Shown here one piece after another: positions 20,043-26,956 of a stretch of 32,253 nucleotides of DNA. The notes under the pieces were generated by a model. The model did no database searches and was not told the DNA's origin. It saw only the letters and a list, made by a program, of their open reading frames with translations. This DNA comes from Bacillota bacterium (lineage in GTDB: Bacteria > Bacillota > Dethiobacteria > Dethiobacterales > Dethiobacteraceae). The stretch spans positions 1 to 32,253 of the forward strand of contig JAAYLG010000078.1 in the NCBI GenBank assembly GCA_012522075.1, written 5' to 3'. Position 1 is the first letter of the stretch. Every line of letters begins with the position of its first letter. Made by a program: the position numbers and the translations under genes.

Positions 20043-20133
20043 AAGACCTGGCCAGGGAAAAAACATCCGCATTGTAAAAATGCTGTAACAAAACGGGCTG
20101 CAGGCTGTCTCCGGGAAAATACAGATTCGCCAG

Positions 20134-20416: not shown

Positions 20417-20599
20417 GAGCACGCATTTATTGACATCCAGCGGCATGACCACGGCAGGGGTGCGGCGGCTGAAAAAATTACCGACCGCATTATTGCAGAA
20501 CAGTCGCTGAAGGTAGACACAATTTCCGGCGCCACCTACAGTAGCAAAGTAATCCTCAAATCAGTAAAAAAAGCCTTAGTCCAGGCTGGAACTTCCTGA
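20417..20599 (+). pseudogene. Fragment of an FMN-binding domain gene
   Basis: Sixty codons without a start read EHAFIDIQRHDHGRGAAAEK, ITDRIIAEQSLKVDTISGAT and YSSKVILKSVKKALVQAGTS, then TGA. The block VDTISGATYSSKVILKSV is the diagnostic covalent/non-covalent FMN-binding motif of the FMN_bind family (pattern vDaiSGATySSkai). The frame is closed upstream by TAA 20414-20416, and the N-terminal half of the domain was not recognised. A short open frame from ATG 20285 (MNFPERAIVKKLQG) may be the old start but cannot be tied to the family. It is a decayed gene for a small flavin-binding, probably redox-active, protein. Confidence 0.75.
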
Positions 20600-21832: not shown

Positions 21833-21921
21833 TGCGGACCGAGGCAGAACTGGAAGCGCTCCTGGTAGGGCTGTTGCAGGGGCAGGAGGAAAGGACAGGG
21901 AGGATGCTGAGAATTGTATGA
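21832..21921 (+). CDS. Small open frame of 29 codons, translationally coupled
   Basis: The start ATG overlaps the stop of the preceding RNA methyltransferase gene as TAATG, and the frame ends inside the start of the next gene. The peptide MRTEAELEALLVGLLQGQEE followed by RTGRMLRIV looks helical and amphipathic. No family is recognised. It could be a real small protein, or simply a coupling cistron that carries ribosomes to the TTG start of the oxidoreductase. Confidence 0.3.
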   Translation: MRTEAELEALLVGLLQGQEERTGRMLRIV

Positions 21922-22986
21922 TCTTGCCATTGTCGGTGCGGGGCCGGCGGGTGCGACGCTAGCCAGGCTGCTGGGTCGGCGCTATCGGGTTTTGCTTTTG
22001 GAGCGGCGTGACCTCAGGCGTCCTGCCGGCAGCAGCTTGGCACACAAATGCTGCGGCGGGCTTTTGGCTCCCGATGCCCAGAAAACCCTGGGCATTATGG
22101 GCCTCGCCCTGCCAAAAGATGTGCTGGTGGAGCCGCAGCTTTTTGTTGTCCGCACCATAGATTTGCAAAGCGGGCAGGAGCGTTATTACCAGCGTTTCTA
22201 CCTCAACATGGACCGGGAAAAGTTTGACCGTTGGCTGCTGTCCCTGGTACCGGACACAGTGGATGTCTGCTGTCCTGCCATGGTAAAAGAGGTGCGCCGG
22301 GAAGACAGCCTGTACAGGCTGCAGTTTTTACGGGAAGGAGAAACCTGCGAAGCTTATGCAAGGTGCCTTGTCGGTGCGGACGGGGCCGCTTCCCTTGTGC
22401 GCAAAAGGCTTTTTGCCGGGAGAAATGAACAAAAGCTGTATGCGGCTATCCAGGAATGGTTTCCGGTACAGGAAGCCCTTCCGTATTTTTCTGTCTTTTT
22501 TGACCGGCGGCTGACCGATTTTTACGGGTGGACCATCCCCAAAGGCCGGATGCTCATTCTGGGCGCCGCCCTGGCACCCGGCGGAAACCCCATTGCAGCT
22601 TTCGGTGAACTGAAGCGGAAGCTTGCCGCCTATGGCTACGGTTTAAGGACAGTTGCAGAAGGGAAGGGGCTTTCATTGTCCGCCCGCGCCATGCACCGCA
22701 CTCCCTGACCGACGGCTGCGGTGCCGCTCTTATCGGTGAGGCGGCGGGTTGGATCAGTCCCAGTTCGGCGGAAGGGTTCAGTTTTGCTTTTCGCAGTGCG
22801 CTTGCATGTGCCCGGAGCCTTGAAGGAGGTCTTGACGGTTTTACAGAGCGCTACCGCAGGGAAACCGGCGTCCTGTGCCGCCAAATCCTGCAAAAAAACA
22901 TTAAACTTCCGTTCATGTATCACCCTGTGCTGCGCAGGCTGGTCATGGGACTGGGATTGGCGGCGGTGAATGTTAAGAAAAATTAA
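21914..22986 (+). pseudogene. FAD-dependent oxidoreductase (geranylgeranyl-reductase-like), frameshifted
   Basis: The protein begins with an FAD-binding dinucleotide motif YDLAIVGAGPAGATLARLLG. It continues with family blocks such as AHKCCGGLLAPDAQ and LNMDREKFDRWL up to RTVAEG. At 22658-22667 GAAGG occurs twice in tandem. With one copy the frame would run on as VAEGAFIVRP, then GAALIGEAAGWISPSSAEGF (the second FAD-contact motif) to TAA at 22986. With two copies the frame shifts and stops at 22708. The rest of the second frame is intact, so the lesion is recent. The start is TTG 21914, with GGGAGG ten bases upstream. Full length would be about 355 residues. The family acts on prenyl or other hydrophobic substrates, but the substrate here is unknown. 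Confidence 0.85.
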
Positions 22987-23046
22987 TCACTTAGGCGAAT
23001 TCTGTAAATAAAAAGTAACATAACTCGACTCTTAATTTGCTATGAT

Positions 23047-23080: not shown

Positions 23081-24037
23081 ATGAAAAGATATATTTTAAC
23101 ATTGCTGGCTATGCTTTTGGCATTAACCGGGTGTGCCACATTGGAGTTGAACAACCTGCAGCCCCAAGCGGCTGAGCTGGATGTTTTGGAAGATGAAAAA
23201 GTTACCCGCCTCGCGGATATTGATTTTGTTCCCGTTCCCGGCTTTGCCTACACCGTCTTGCTGGAAGAAGGCTTGACCGGCGGGAATAAAGTATTTTACC
23301 GCCGTTTTATCACTTACGATGCGACTGGTGATGAAGTTCACGAGTTTGTCACGGAGGCGGAGCTTCCCCGCTCTTTTCCGTCAGCCGGGGAGGCCAGGGA
23401 ATACCTGACAAGAGTGACACCCGAGAAACTGCTTTTACCTGAGAATACTTATATAAGTGACAGCGTGCACTGCTCCTGGGAAGAGGAAGCTTATCCCGCC
23501 GCTGTGGAAGAGGAGCAGCGCATTTCCCTGGCGGCTCTGAAACGCCTTGGCGCCGTGTCAAGGCTGAATGAATTTTATGTAATCGACAAAAACCCTGAAA
23601 CACTGGTGGCGGCAATTGAGGAGACGGAAGCAAGCATAGCCGACGTGGCAGACAGTTTTGTTGTTGAACGTACCCTGGAATCGTTGCCGCAGTCATTTGT
23701 TTACCGTATCCGCCTGGCATTGCCCGGCAAAATGCAGGCTAACAAGCTTACGGAAGCAAGTGTGAGCCTGAAGTACCAGATTGATGAATTGGGCAACCCG
23801 CTGCACCTGGTGCTTCTTTACAGTGCCGCTTTTCAGAACGGCCTTGGTGATGGAGACATGACATTGCTGAACAGGATGGCCGCTTTTGTCAACGAAATGG
23901 TAGACACACTAAAAGAACAACTGGACCTTTTTGGGGTAAACAGTAACAACCCGTCCTTGACTTACAGCAATGTTACCCTCTTTTACGAAGAAGAAAAGCT
24001 CCCGGACAGCTTATGCCGCAAAATAGAAAACCGCTAA
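23081..24037 (+). CDS. Lipoprotein of unknown function
   Basis: The 318-residue protein has a clear lipoprotein signal: MKRYILTLLAMLLALTGC, with the lipobox Cys at residue 18. The mature part is acidic and mixed alpha/beta with no recognised catalytic motif. Repeated acidic stretches (DEVHEFVTEAELPRSFPSAG) and long predicted helices (LLNRMAAFVNEMVDTLKEQL) are seen. AGAAGGTG precedes ATG 23081; the frame is open further upstream to 23042 but the signal peptide fixes this start. It lies just upstream of the heme-type sensor kinase gene in the same direction, about 97 bases away, so it might be an accessory sensor; that is a guess. Confidence 0.8.
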   Translation: MKRYILTLLAMLLALTGCATLELNNLQPQAAELDVLEDEKVTRLADIDFVPVPGFAYTVLLEEGLTGGNKVFYRRFITYDATGDEVHEFVTEAELPRSFPSAGEAREYLTRVTPEKLLLPENTYISDSVHCSWEEEAYPAAVEEEQRISLAALKRLGAVSRLNEFYVIDKNPETLVAAIEETEASIADVADSFVVERTLESLPQSFVYRIRLALPGKMQANKLTEASVSLKYQIDELGNPLHLVLLYSAAFQNGLGDGDMTLLNRMAAFVNEMVDTLKEQLDLFGVNSNNPSLTYSNVTLFYEEEKLPDSLCRKIENR

Positions 24038-24134
24038 AGCCGGTGCGACCCGCTTTGGCAGCAAAAAGGATTTTTTGCCACCTCTGTCGAACACCACAGA
24101 AACTATGGTGACTGGACAAGGGTGGTTTTTTCAT

Positions 24135-25811
24135 ATGTATTTGCCGCGGCGGAATTCCCTGGGAGGACGGTGTTTTTTCATCATCAGCCTTTTGTTTATT
24201 GCTCTTTTGCTTTTGGATTATGTTTTAAGCAGCAAGTATTACTATTGCTGTGAGCTGAACAAACTGCACACGCAAGCGGAAGTAATTACGGAACAGTTTA
24301 TAGCCATGCGCTCTTTTATTGCCTCCCAGCAGGACAGGATCAATTATGACAGCAAGGGCAATTTCGAATTTAAACACTTGAATCCGGCAGCGGTAGGCAA
24401 AGGTGTGGGCGACATCCTGGCCGAACGGACGGACTACAGTATTAAACAAACCAGGATGCAGGTCCGCAACCCGGGAAACGCCCCTGATGAGTTTGAGCGT
24501 GAGGCGCTGCAGCAGTTTGCGGCAGACCACAGCTTAAAGCATGTTGAAACTACCGCCGAGCTGGACGGGGAACCGGTCTACCGCCATATTATGCCGCTTT
24601 TTGCGGAGGAAGACTGCCTCGCCTGTCATGGTACGCCGGCGGGGGAGATAGATGTGGCCGGCTTTCCCAAAGAAGGCTTGCAAGTCGGTGATTTGGCCGG
24701 TGCAATCAGTGTAACCATCCCCATGGCAGACAGCCTGGCTGCCTTGCGGCAAAACCGTTTCAGCCTGGTGCTTTTCAGTACGATTCTCGGGGTGGCGATT
24801 TTGACCGCCGTGCTTTTTGTCACCGGCCGCCTGGTTATCCGTCCCCTGCAGGAGCTTAAAGACCGGGCGATAAAAGTGGGCGAAGGCAATTTGGATGTGT
24901 CCTTTGATGATGTGCCCGCCTACGGGGAAGTTGCCACCTTGGCGCAGGAATTTTCCGCCATGCTGGCGAAACTTAAAGATTTATACCAGAATATGGAGCG
25001 TAAGGTCAGAACGCGCACCAGGGAACTGGAAGTGGCCAATCTGCGCCTGAAAGAGGGGCAAAAGGTTCTGGCACAACTTAATCAGAAACTTTCCGAAAGC
25101 AACCGCTTGAAAAGTGAGTTTTTGGCGACTATTACCCATGAGTTGAAAACGCCTCTTACTTCTATTGTGGCTTTTTCCGAATTGCTGTTGGATGAGATTC
25201 CCGGCCCGCTTAATGAAGAGCAACGGGAAAACCTGATGGATATCAAAACAAGCTCCCAGCAGCTGATGATTATGATCAGCGATATCCTGGACATGGCCAA
25301 ATATGACGCGGGCCATCTGCGCCTGGAGATGGAACGGGTGGACCTGAATGACATTTTCCGTGTGGTGCGGCGGACTATGTCGGCTATTGCTTACCAGAAC
25401 AATGTGCGGCTGTATGTCCACCCGGTTAACCTGCCGCTGGTATATGGTGATCCGGAAAGGATCCGTCAGATGATCGTTAACCTGGTTTCCAACGCCATTA
25501 AATTTTCCAAGGAAGAGGGCGAAATCCATGTGTCGGCGGCTGCGGAAGGCGATTTTGCCGTTATTACAGTCAAAGACAACGGCGAAGGCATCGCCCCGGA
25601 ATTTTTGCCCCACATTTTTGAGCGATTCCGCCAGGGAGACAGTTCCAACCGCAGGCGCCGCAGCGGCACCGGCCTGGGACTGGCTTTGGTGAAAACGCTG
25701 GCTGAATTGCAGGGCGGTCGCGTAGGTGTGTCCAGCCAGTTGGGAGAAGGTACCGAGTTCTATATTTACTTGCCTTTTGCCGGGAAAGGAGGACAGGAAC
25801 ATGAGCGGTAA
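24135..25811 (+). CDS. Membrane histidine kinase with Tll0287-like (DUF3365) sensor and CxxCH heme motif
   Basis: Numbered from ATG 24135 (558 residues): membrane helix 1 (about 13-31), an extracytoplasmic Tll0287-like domain (about 40-205) containing CLACH (Cys161, Cys164, His165), the c-type heme attachment signature, then membrane helix 2 (about 209-232), HAMP, coiled coil, HisKA with His335 in TITHELKTP, and an ATPase domain (NLVSNAIKF, KDNGEGI, GTGLGLALV). It probably senses redox state or a gas through heme and phosphorylates the next gene's product. ATG 24135 was chosen with AAGGGTGG about nine bases upstream. TTG 24075 is in frame but lies inside a GCAAAAA/TTTTTGC stem. Its end overlaps the regulator by 11 bases. 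Confidence 0.92.
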   Translation: MYLPRRNSLGGRCFFIISLLFIALLLLDYVLSSKYYYCCELNKLHTQAEVITEQFIAMRSFIASQQDRINYDSKGNFEFKHLNPAAVGKGVGDILAERTDYSIKQTRMQVRNPGNAPDEFEREALQQFAADHSLKHVETTAELDGEPVYRHIMPLFAEEDCLACHGTPAGEIDVAGFPKEGLQVGDLAGAISVTIPMADSLAALRQNRFSLVLFSTILGVAILTAVLFVTGRLVIRPLQELKDRAIKVGEGNLDVSFDDVPAYGEVATLAQEFSAMLAKLKDLYQNMERKVRTRTRELEVANLRLKEGQKVLAQLNQKLSESNRLKSEFLATITHELKTPLTSIVAFSELLLDEIPGPLNEEQRENLMDIKTSSQQLMIMISDILDMAKYDAGHLRLEMERVDLNDIFRVVRRTMSAIAYQNNVRLYVHPVNLPLVYGDPERIRQMIVNLVSNAIKFSKEEGEIHVSAAAEGDFAVITVKDNGEGIAPEFLPHIFERFRQGDSSNRRRRSGTGLGLALVKTLAELQGGRVGVSSQLGEGTEFYIYLPFAGKGGQEHER

Positions 25812-26511
25812 AGTAACCAAGATCCTGGTGGTGGATGATGAGCCGAAAATCCGGCGCATTGTTGAGCAGAGCCTGCGGAAGGACGCTTACAAAGTGATCC
25901 ATGCGGCGGACGGGCGAGAAGCAATCCAGAAAGTGGAAGAGGACCGCCCGGATTTAATTGTGCTGGATTTAATGATGCCGGAAATGGACGGTTTTGAAGT
26001 CTGTAGGGTATTGCGCAGCAAAGGGGACAATACACCGGTAATTATCCTTTCCGCCATAGATGAGCTGGAGGATAAAGCCCTGGGTTTTAACCTGGGCGTG
26101 GACGACTATGTGACCAAACCTTTCAGCCCCTCGGAACTGGCACTGCGCGTAAAAGCCGTACTGCGCCGTGTCGCCGGCGAGGAGCTTGCTCCCCGCCTCC
26201 GGCTAGGAACATATGACGACGGCCGTCTATATATTAACAGTAAAACACGGGAAGTGAAACTGAACGGCAAGGATGTATACCTGACGGCAAAAGAATTTGA
26301 CTTGCTATGGGTGCTGGCCAACAATCCCGGCGTGGTTTACAGCCGGGACCAGTTGCTTGATCTGGTCTGGGGCAATGAATATTTCGGCGATACAGGCACG
26401 GTAACCGTTTTAATCCGGCGTATCCGGGAAAAAATAGAGAAAGACCCGGCTAACCCCACTTATTTGCGGACAGTCTGGGGCATAGGTTATAAATTTGAAC
26501 CGGCCCCCTAA
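25801..26511 (+). CDS. OmpR/PhoB-family response regulator, partner of the heme-type kinase
   Basis: The 236-residue protein has a receiver domain with Asp12-Asp13 (VVDDEPK), phospho-Asp56 (VLDLMMPEMDG) and Lys in VTKPFSP. A C-terminal winged-helix DNA-binding domain follows (about 140-234; LTAKEFDLLWVLANNPGVVY and RRIREKIEKDPANPTYLRTV). It should act as a transcription factor when phosphorylated by the kinase encoded directly upstream. GGAGG precedes ATG 25801 within the kinase gene, so the two are translationally coupled. acpS follows after 13 bases and is probably co-transcribed. Target genes are not evident from the window. Confidence 0.95.
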   Translation: MSGKVTKILVVDDEPKIRRIVEQSLRKDAYKVIHAADGREAIQKVEEDRPDLIVLDLMMPEMDGFEVCRVLRSKGDNTPVIILSAIDELEDKALGFNLGVDDYVTKPFSPSELALRVKAVLRRVAGEELAPRLRLGTYDDGRLYINSKTREVKLNGKDVYLTAKEFDLLWVLANNPGVVYSRDQLLDLVWGNEYFGDTGTVTVLIRRIREKIEKDPANPTYLRTVWGIGYKFEPAP

Positions 26512-26524
26512 AGGCGGCAGGAGC

Positions 26525-26941
26525 ATGTATCGTGAGAACAAAGCGGCGTTACGCTGCGGAGTGGATATCATTGAAATCGAGAGAGTAGCCCGGGTATATG
26601 CCAGGCGTCCCCGCCTGTTTCTGAAACGTCTCTTCACGGCGCGGGAGCAGGAGCAACTGGCGGTAAAACGCCATACCGCCCGGCACCTGGCGGCCCGCTT
26701 TGCCGCCAAAGAAGCCGTGTTTAAACTGCTGGGGCTGGGGATTGGCGACCTGGACTGGACCGAGGTGGAAATCCTTTCCCTGCCCGGGGGAGAACCGGTT
26801 GTGCATCTTTTCGGCAAAGCGGCCAAAAGGGCTGCAGAGCTGTCCCTGTCGTCTGTAGCTCTCTCGCTGAGCCATTGCCGTAAATATGCCGTAGCTTTTG
26901 CCACAGCCCTGGTCTTAAAAAAAACTCCTCCTGCCCCTTGA
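26525..26941 (+). CDS. acpS: Holo-[acyl-carrier-protein] synthase
   Basis: AcpS transfers 4'-phosphopantetheine from CoA to acyl carrier protein. The 138-residue protein has the two family signatures GVDIIEIERV (Asp14, Mg2+ ligand) and ARFAAKEAVFKLLG (metal-binding Glu), plus ALSLSHCRKYAVAFA near the end. GGCAGGAG precedes ATG 26525. The C-terminus KKTPPAP is encoded within the terminator stem. It sits directly behind the response regulator gene and ahead of the iron-sulfur operon. Confidence 0.95.
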   Translation: MYRENKAALRCGVDIIEIERVARVYARRPRLFLKRLFTAREQEQLAVKRHTARHLAARFAAKEAVFKLLGLGIGDLDWTEVEILSLPGGEPVVHLFGKAAKRAAELSLSSVALSLSHCRKYAVAFATALVLKKTPPAP

Positions 26942-26956
26942 CGGAGGAGCTTTTTC
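26925..26956 (+). terminator. Intrinsic terminator after acpS
   Basis: CTCCTCC (26925-26931) pairs with GGAGGAG (26943-26949), followed by C and five T. It includes the acpS stop codon in the loop and ends the kinase-regulator-acpS transcript. Confidence 0.8.

Follow-up and report, generated by a model that had tools for sequence, protein, structure and literature searches.

The window analyzed here is a contig of 32,253 nucleotides from a Bacillota bacterium of the family Dethiobacteraceae, and belongs to an assembly of 2.07 Mb in 221 contigs that is 93% complete. It carries the overlapping genes (by 11 nt) of a sensor histidine kinase and a response regulator, with a lipoprotein gene upstream and acpS downstream (Table 1). 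The kinase and regulator ORFs lie where the original prediction had placed them, the overlap bears out the coupling proposed for the pair, and the lipoprotein noted upstream is a real ORF with a lipobox. The profile search found Response_reg and Trans_reg_C domains in the regulator, which hence belongs to the PhoB/OmpR type. In the kinase, hydrophobic segments at about residues 7-35 and 208-238 flank a PF11845 domain and a HAMP domain follows the second of them, so that the domain between the segments is predicted to be extracytoplasmic, as had been proposed.

It had also been proposed that the pair drives acpS, and here our data point elsewhere. The gap between the regulator gene and acpS is 127-248 nt in some relatives versus 13 nt in the window, and a box of the regulator type was not found ahead of acpS; the conserved box is located instead before the lipoprotein gene. 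acpS is thus probably a co-transcribed passenger.

Table 1. Features of the kinase-regulator locus and the evidence for each
Feature	Position	Strand	Evidence
Putative regulator-binding box, TGTAAA-N5-AGTAAC, direct repeat with 11-bp period	23003..23019	+	conservation, alignment
Lipoprotein, 318 aa, lipobox LTGC; likely regulator target	23081..24037	+	ORF translation, AlphaFold
Sigma-H-like promoter (AAAGGATTT-N12-GTCGAAC) with 0A-box core TGTCGAA, 5' of the kinase operon	24065..24092	+	conservation
Sensor histidine kinase, 558 aa: TM, sCache_heme, TM, HAMP, HisKA (His335), HATPase_c	24135..25811	+	ORF translation, domain profiles
Tll0287-like / sCache_heme extracytoplasmic sensor domain	24261..24722	+	PF11845, PDB 5B82 match
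CLACH heme-c attachment motif: Cys161, Cys164, His165	24615..24629	+	translation; invariant in relatives
Response regulator: receiver (Asp56, by sequence) and Trans_reg_C, PhoB/OmpR type	25801..26511	+	domain profiles
acpS (holo-ACP synthase), 13 nt 3' of the regulator gene, probably co-transcribed	26525..26941	+	profile, spacing
Strong terminator-like hairpin followed by a U-run, closing the operon	26919..26956	+	RNA fold -13 kcal/mol, z -2.8

The sensor domain and its CxxCH motif

PF11845 matches residues 43-196 of the kinase (E 1e-29, 104.2 bits against a curated cut-off of 24.1, and 107.4 bits in another scan), and a phmmer comparison with Tll0287 of Thermosynechococcus (PDB 5B82) gave an E-value of 4.8e-9 with the CxxCH motifs of both proteins aligned, the one of Tll0287 also being CLACH. 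The numbering of Cys161, Cys164, and His165 in the original prediction is correct, and the motif sits within the domain, in an insertion before its last strands according to the alignment to Tll0287, as is characteristic of the family. It is invariant in all the orthologues aligned and retained in the paralogues compared, which rules out its occurrence by chance (one row, L104, was left out of the sensor alignment because of a wrong reading frame). The AlphaFold model of the sensor, made from the single sequence, was unusable (pLDDT 47).

This domain, DUF3365/Tll0287, has been defined in a 2026 preprint as sCache_heme and placed among the Cache domains, with CXXCH conserved at 99% (PMC12889525), and the members tested contain covalent heme (PMC12889525, PMC8396549). 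The type of sensor is therefore already described, and the kinase of the window is a further member. With the published signalling proteins (PMC12889525) it shares the domain, the motif, the TM-HAMP-kinase layout, the missing axial Cys, and the presence of heme-c maturation genes in the genome, and it differs in its host, a Bacillota MAG. The domain has been called rare or absent in Bacillota (PMC12889525). In our sample of the phylum, 44 genomes out of 399 encode PF11845, as do nine of the 20 genomes of the family, mostly in kinase-length frames, which is a refinement of that statement and not a contradiction, because the taxon definitions may differ.

A search for cytochrome c maturation genes, suggested along with the original prediction, was positive. 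One contig carries a mixed heme-c maturation set (L019:6158-10841), in which genes for a CcmA-like ABC protein, CcmB, a CcmC-like protein, and CcmE (with a CPSKY motif) are clustered with those for ResB and CcsA, and this rules out a genome devoid of a maturation system. It could be argued that these genes serve other cytochromes and that the CxxCH is a structural or a zinc/thiol motif that carries no heme in vivo; we consider this very improbable, given the near-universal conservation of the motif, the covalent heme of the members tested, and the maturation cluster itself. Very probably, then, the outward-facing domain binds heme covalently and reads NO or the redox state.

As for the choice between these two signals, published work distinguishes a stand-alone member with Cys/His heme, which acts as a redox type, from a TM-HAMP member without the Cys, from Pseudomonas azotoformans, which is a stable NO binder (koff 6.25e-4 per s) that forms no stable oxy complex, each type being represented by one protein (PMC12889525). 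In our alignment, one position has two states, Cys in L108, L110, and the Desulfosporosinus sequence L012, and Pro in most of the others, including Pro84 of the window kinase. Tll0287 likewise has a Cys near this position; it shares with the window sensor the domain sequence, CxxCH, and the RNP.N.P and GDL motifs, but it is a stand-alone protein with Cys/His heme, whereas the window protein has Pro at the Cys position and is fused to a kinase. Two of the features that mark the signalling (Cluster 2) NO-sensor type, fusion to a signalling module (here HAMP, HisKA, and HATPase_c) and absence of the axial Cys, were found. With Pro84 in place of the Cys of Tll0287, the kinase fits, as judged from sequence, the open-site, signalling-type (NO-sensor) class. 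Some Cys-type sensors of the alignment also sit in kinase-length ORFs, so the Cys/no-Cys division does not coincide exactly with that between stand-alone and fused proteins.

The same heme-c sensor could instead respond to redox potential, oxidation freeing or exchanging a distal ligand, as proposed for the Geobacter chemoreceptors GSU0582 and GSU0935. These belong to the same domain family and have an extracytoplasmic heme-c domain, TM, and HAMP like the window kinase; they were taken as redox sensors, since their spin and ligation shift with redox (midpoints of -156 and -251 mV), and their heme also binds CO and NO (PMC8396549). They differ from the window kinase in their MCP output and in the use of Met60 as distal ligand, and the sequence match to 3B47 is weak (E 0.15). 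In addition, His81 is invariant among the orthologues of the kinase and could be a switchable ligand. However, Met60 of GSU0935 could not be aligned residue by residue. Moreover, other sensors bearing the same motif have Arg, Tyr, or Gly in place of His81, which weakens it as a distal ligand across the family; this residue may belong to the pocket or act as a ligand only occasionally. As the published signalling-type protein acts as an NO binder (PMC12889525), a purely redox signal seems to us rather unlikely. Thus, of the original proposal of a covalent heme reading redox state or a gas, the heme c is a strong implication of the domain family and of the maturation cluster, and a gas, NO, is favored over pure redox because Pro84 replaces the axial Cys and the published signalling-type member binds NO stably (PMC12889525). 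Second sCache_heme kinases are present in some members of the family (L021, L023, L024, and L033), and these have Arg or Tyr where the window kinase has His81.

Conserved elements upstream of the lipoprotein and kinase genes

The box preceding the lipoprotein gene lies 21 nt before a TATGAT -10 element at 23041-23046. In 248 kb from 15 loci, all seven matches to its strict form fall at the lipoprotein-upstream site (about 0 expected), and it is also perfect in G029, on another contig. Because this conserved box is a WalR-like repeat, of the kind bound by PhoB/OmpR-type regulators, the lipoprotein is likely the best candidate target of the regulator. Across 98 genomes of the class, the protein was found solely in members of this family. 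As a point against this assignment, G019-G021 and G031 lack it, both at the locus and in the rest of the genome. It matched no Pfam family in the profile search, and its AlphaFold model, which is confident (pLDDT 84), matched no PDB fold at E<=0.001.

The box could also belong to WalR or another OmpR-family regulator, the lipoprotein gene being then a mere neighbor. It is one base off the WalR consensus, TGTWAH-N5-TGTWAH (PMC9210968), and the genome encodes a paralogous regulator with 50% identity to that of the window. The window pair has its regulator class and type of binding box in common with WalRK, but its sensor and gene neighbors are different and its regulator scores 228.1 bits with the YycF/WalR NCBIfam equivalog profile, under the 340-bit cut-off. 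Besides, the presence of the box largely follows that of the regulator, since it is perfect in eight of the nine readable genomes with an orthologue, and decayed (G014) or absent (G028) in genomes that have the lipoprotein without one; G025, with an orthologue and a degenerate box, is a counter-example. We therefore hold a WalR-type owner to be a serious alternative, albeit an improbable one, and keep the regulator of the pair as the candidate that would act at this box. Another repeat, TGTAAA-N5-TGTAAC at 20073-20089, lies in a gene-poor stretch far from the next gene and recurs only in one congener (G016), and it was dropped as a second box.

The kinase gene is preceded by a different element, AAAGGAWWW-N11/12-GTCGAA, which was found in 13 of the 14 loci read, whichever sensor the kinase carries. 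The 11 matches to its strict form in the same 248 kb are all at the kinase-upstream site, where 0.25 would be expected; G018 and G031 have a one-base difference in the -35, and in G022 the element differs and the locus is cut near a contig end. In the window, the -35 fits the sigma-H consensus (RNAGGAWWW/RNNGAATWW; PMC8510167) and the -10 is GTCGAAC, as against GTCGAAT in G026, G027, and G032. The -10 overlaps TGTCGAA, the core of the Spo0A box (PMC3485338). The same composite element precedes spo0A in the source genome (L087:79-923, with AAGGA...TGTCGAAT upstream), and it recurs where contig C5 (L081) ends. A sigH gene was not found in the 93%-complete source assembly, and 16 of the 20 family genomes have one.

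Instead of a sigma-H promoter, this element might be no more than a Spo0A box, or else a promoter for sigma-A, as TGTCGAA is an exact 0A-box core (PMC3485338) that is invariant beyond what sigma-H would need, and the -10 of the window is GTCGAAC and not GAAT. Yet AAAGGA is co-conserved at a fixed spacing that fits the sigma-H consensus (PMC8510167), and the same composite stands upstream of spo0A. We consider the Spo0A or sigma-A interpretation rather unlikely, and keep that of a sigma-H-like promoter overlapped by a 0A box.

Sensor exchange at the orthologous locus

An orthologue of the regulator is present in 15 of the 20 family genomes, the one of the window included, and is 86-97% identical in the 14 relatives. 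The gene order is kinase, regulator, acpS, Rrf2 regulator, iscS, and iscU, as far as the contigs extend (nine of these loci are on the same contigs as the loci of another set that we compared, and the two are not independent). The kinase has the heme domain at nine of the 15 loci and a MASE3 domain (PF17159; E 1e-72 in L015) at five (G024-G027 and G032), the contig being cut at the remaining one (G029). The MASE3 sensor, for which we know of no ligand, is membrane-embedded and replaces the heme domain, and the kinases that carry it have no CxxCH. Their kinase half is 67-70% identical to that of the window kinase; along the alignment with the latter, identity is 5-20% up to a sharp junction near residue 280 and 80-90% from there on, and therefore TM-sensor-TM-HAMP was exchanged as a block. 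Loss of the maturation genes as the cause of the swap is ruled out, because ResB is kept in the three MASE3 genomes tested.

In the tree of the kinase core, the MASE3 kinases cluster together (100/98), whereas the tree of the flanking genes places the genus of the window among the MASE3 genomes, beside G024/G025 (95/96), an arrangement that the kinase core rejects (p-AU 0.004). Given this conflict, at least two exchanges of the kinase gene, or of its sensor, probably took place, by replacement or recombination.

Proposed function

According to our proposal, heme c would be attached outside the membrane with His165 as proximal ligand, and the distal site would be open or weakly ligated, because Pro84 occupies the Cys position of Tll0287. 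Either NO, the likeliest signal, would bind to the heme, or the redox or spin state of the heme would change, and this would alter the signal through HAMP and thereby the activity of the kinase and the phosphorylation of the regulator, which would act at the box 5' of the lipoprotein gene. The operon would be made as cells enter the transition or sporulation state, and in related genera the MASE3 sensor would drive the same kinase core and regulator. As read from the genomes, the kinase thus most likely senses NO (or redox) outside the membrane and, in the transition state, switches a PhoB/OmpR-type regulator that acts on a local lipoprotein. We consider this scheme, from the signalling-type sCache_heme kinase to the lipoprotein box and the MASE3 counterparts, reasonably probable as a whole. 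A Bacillota lineage in which the domain had been described as rare would thereby have a heme-c sensor kinase, linked to a candidate target and to control of the sporulation type.

More tentatively, we suggest that the locus descends from one ancestral sigma-H/Spo0A-linked two-component system in which a sensor cartridge, c-heme Cache or MASE3, was swapped at least two times while the kinase core, the regulator, the promoter, and the target box stayed fixed. Sensor exchange on a fixed output is the less ordinary part of this work, beyond the known kind of sensor. If the cartridge is indeed exchangeable, both sensors would report interchangeable signals (NO- or respiration-related) to the same regulon, which would offer a handle on the ligand of MASE3. 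Because an unrelated sensor serves the same kinase and regulator in sister genera, chimeras would allow a direct test of what the heme sensor shares with MASE3.

Other genes of the window appear altered. At 20420-20597 there is a remnant of an FMN_bind gene, apparently decayed, whose intact counterpart in L014 shares 68% identity with it over 50 aa. The geranylgeranyl-reductase-like FAD gene at 21914-22708 encodes 264 aa versus 357 in L005 and is probably truncated or frameshifted, and the HAD phosphatase gene that relatives have between this gene and rlmL is missing in the window.
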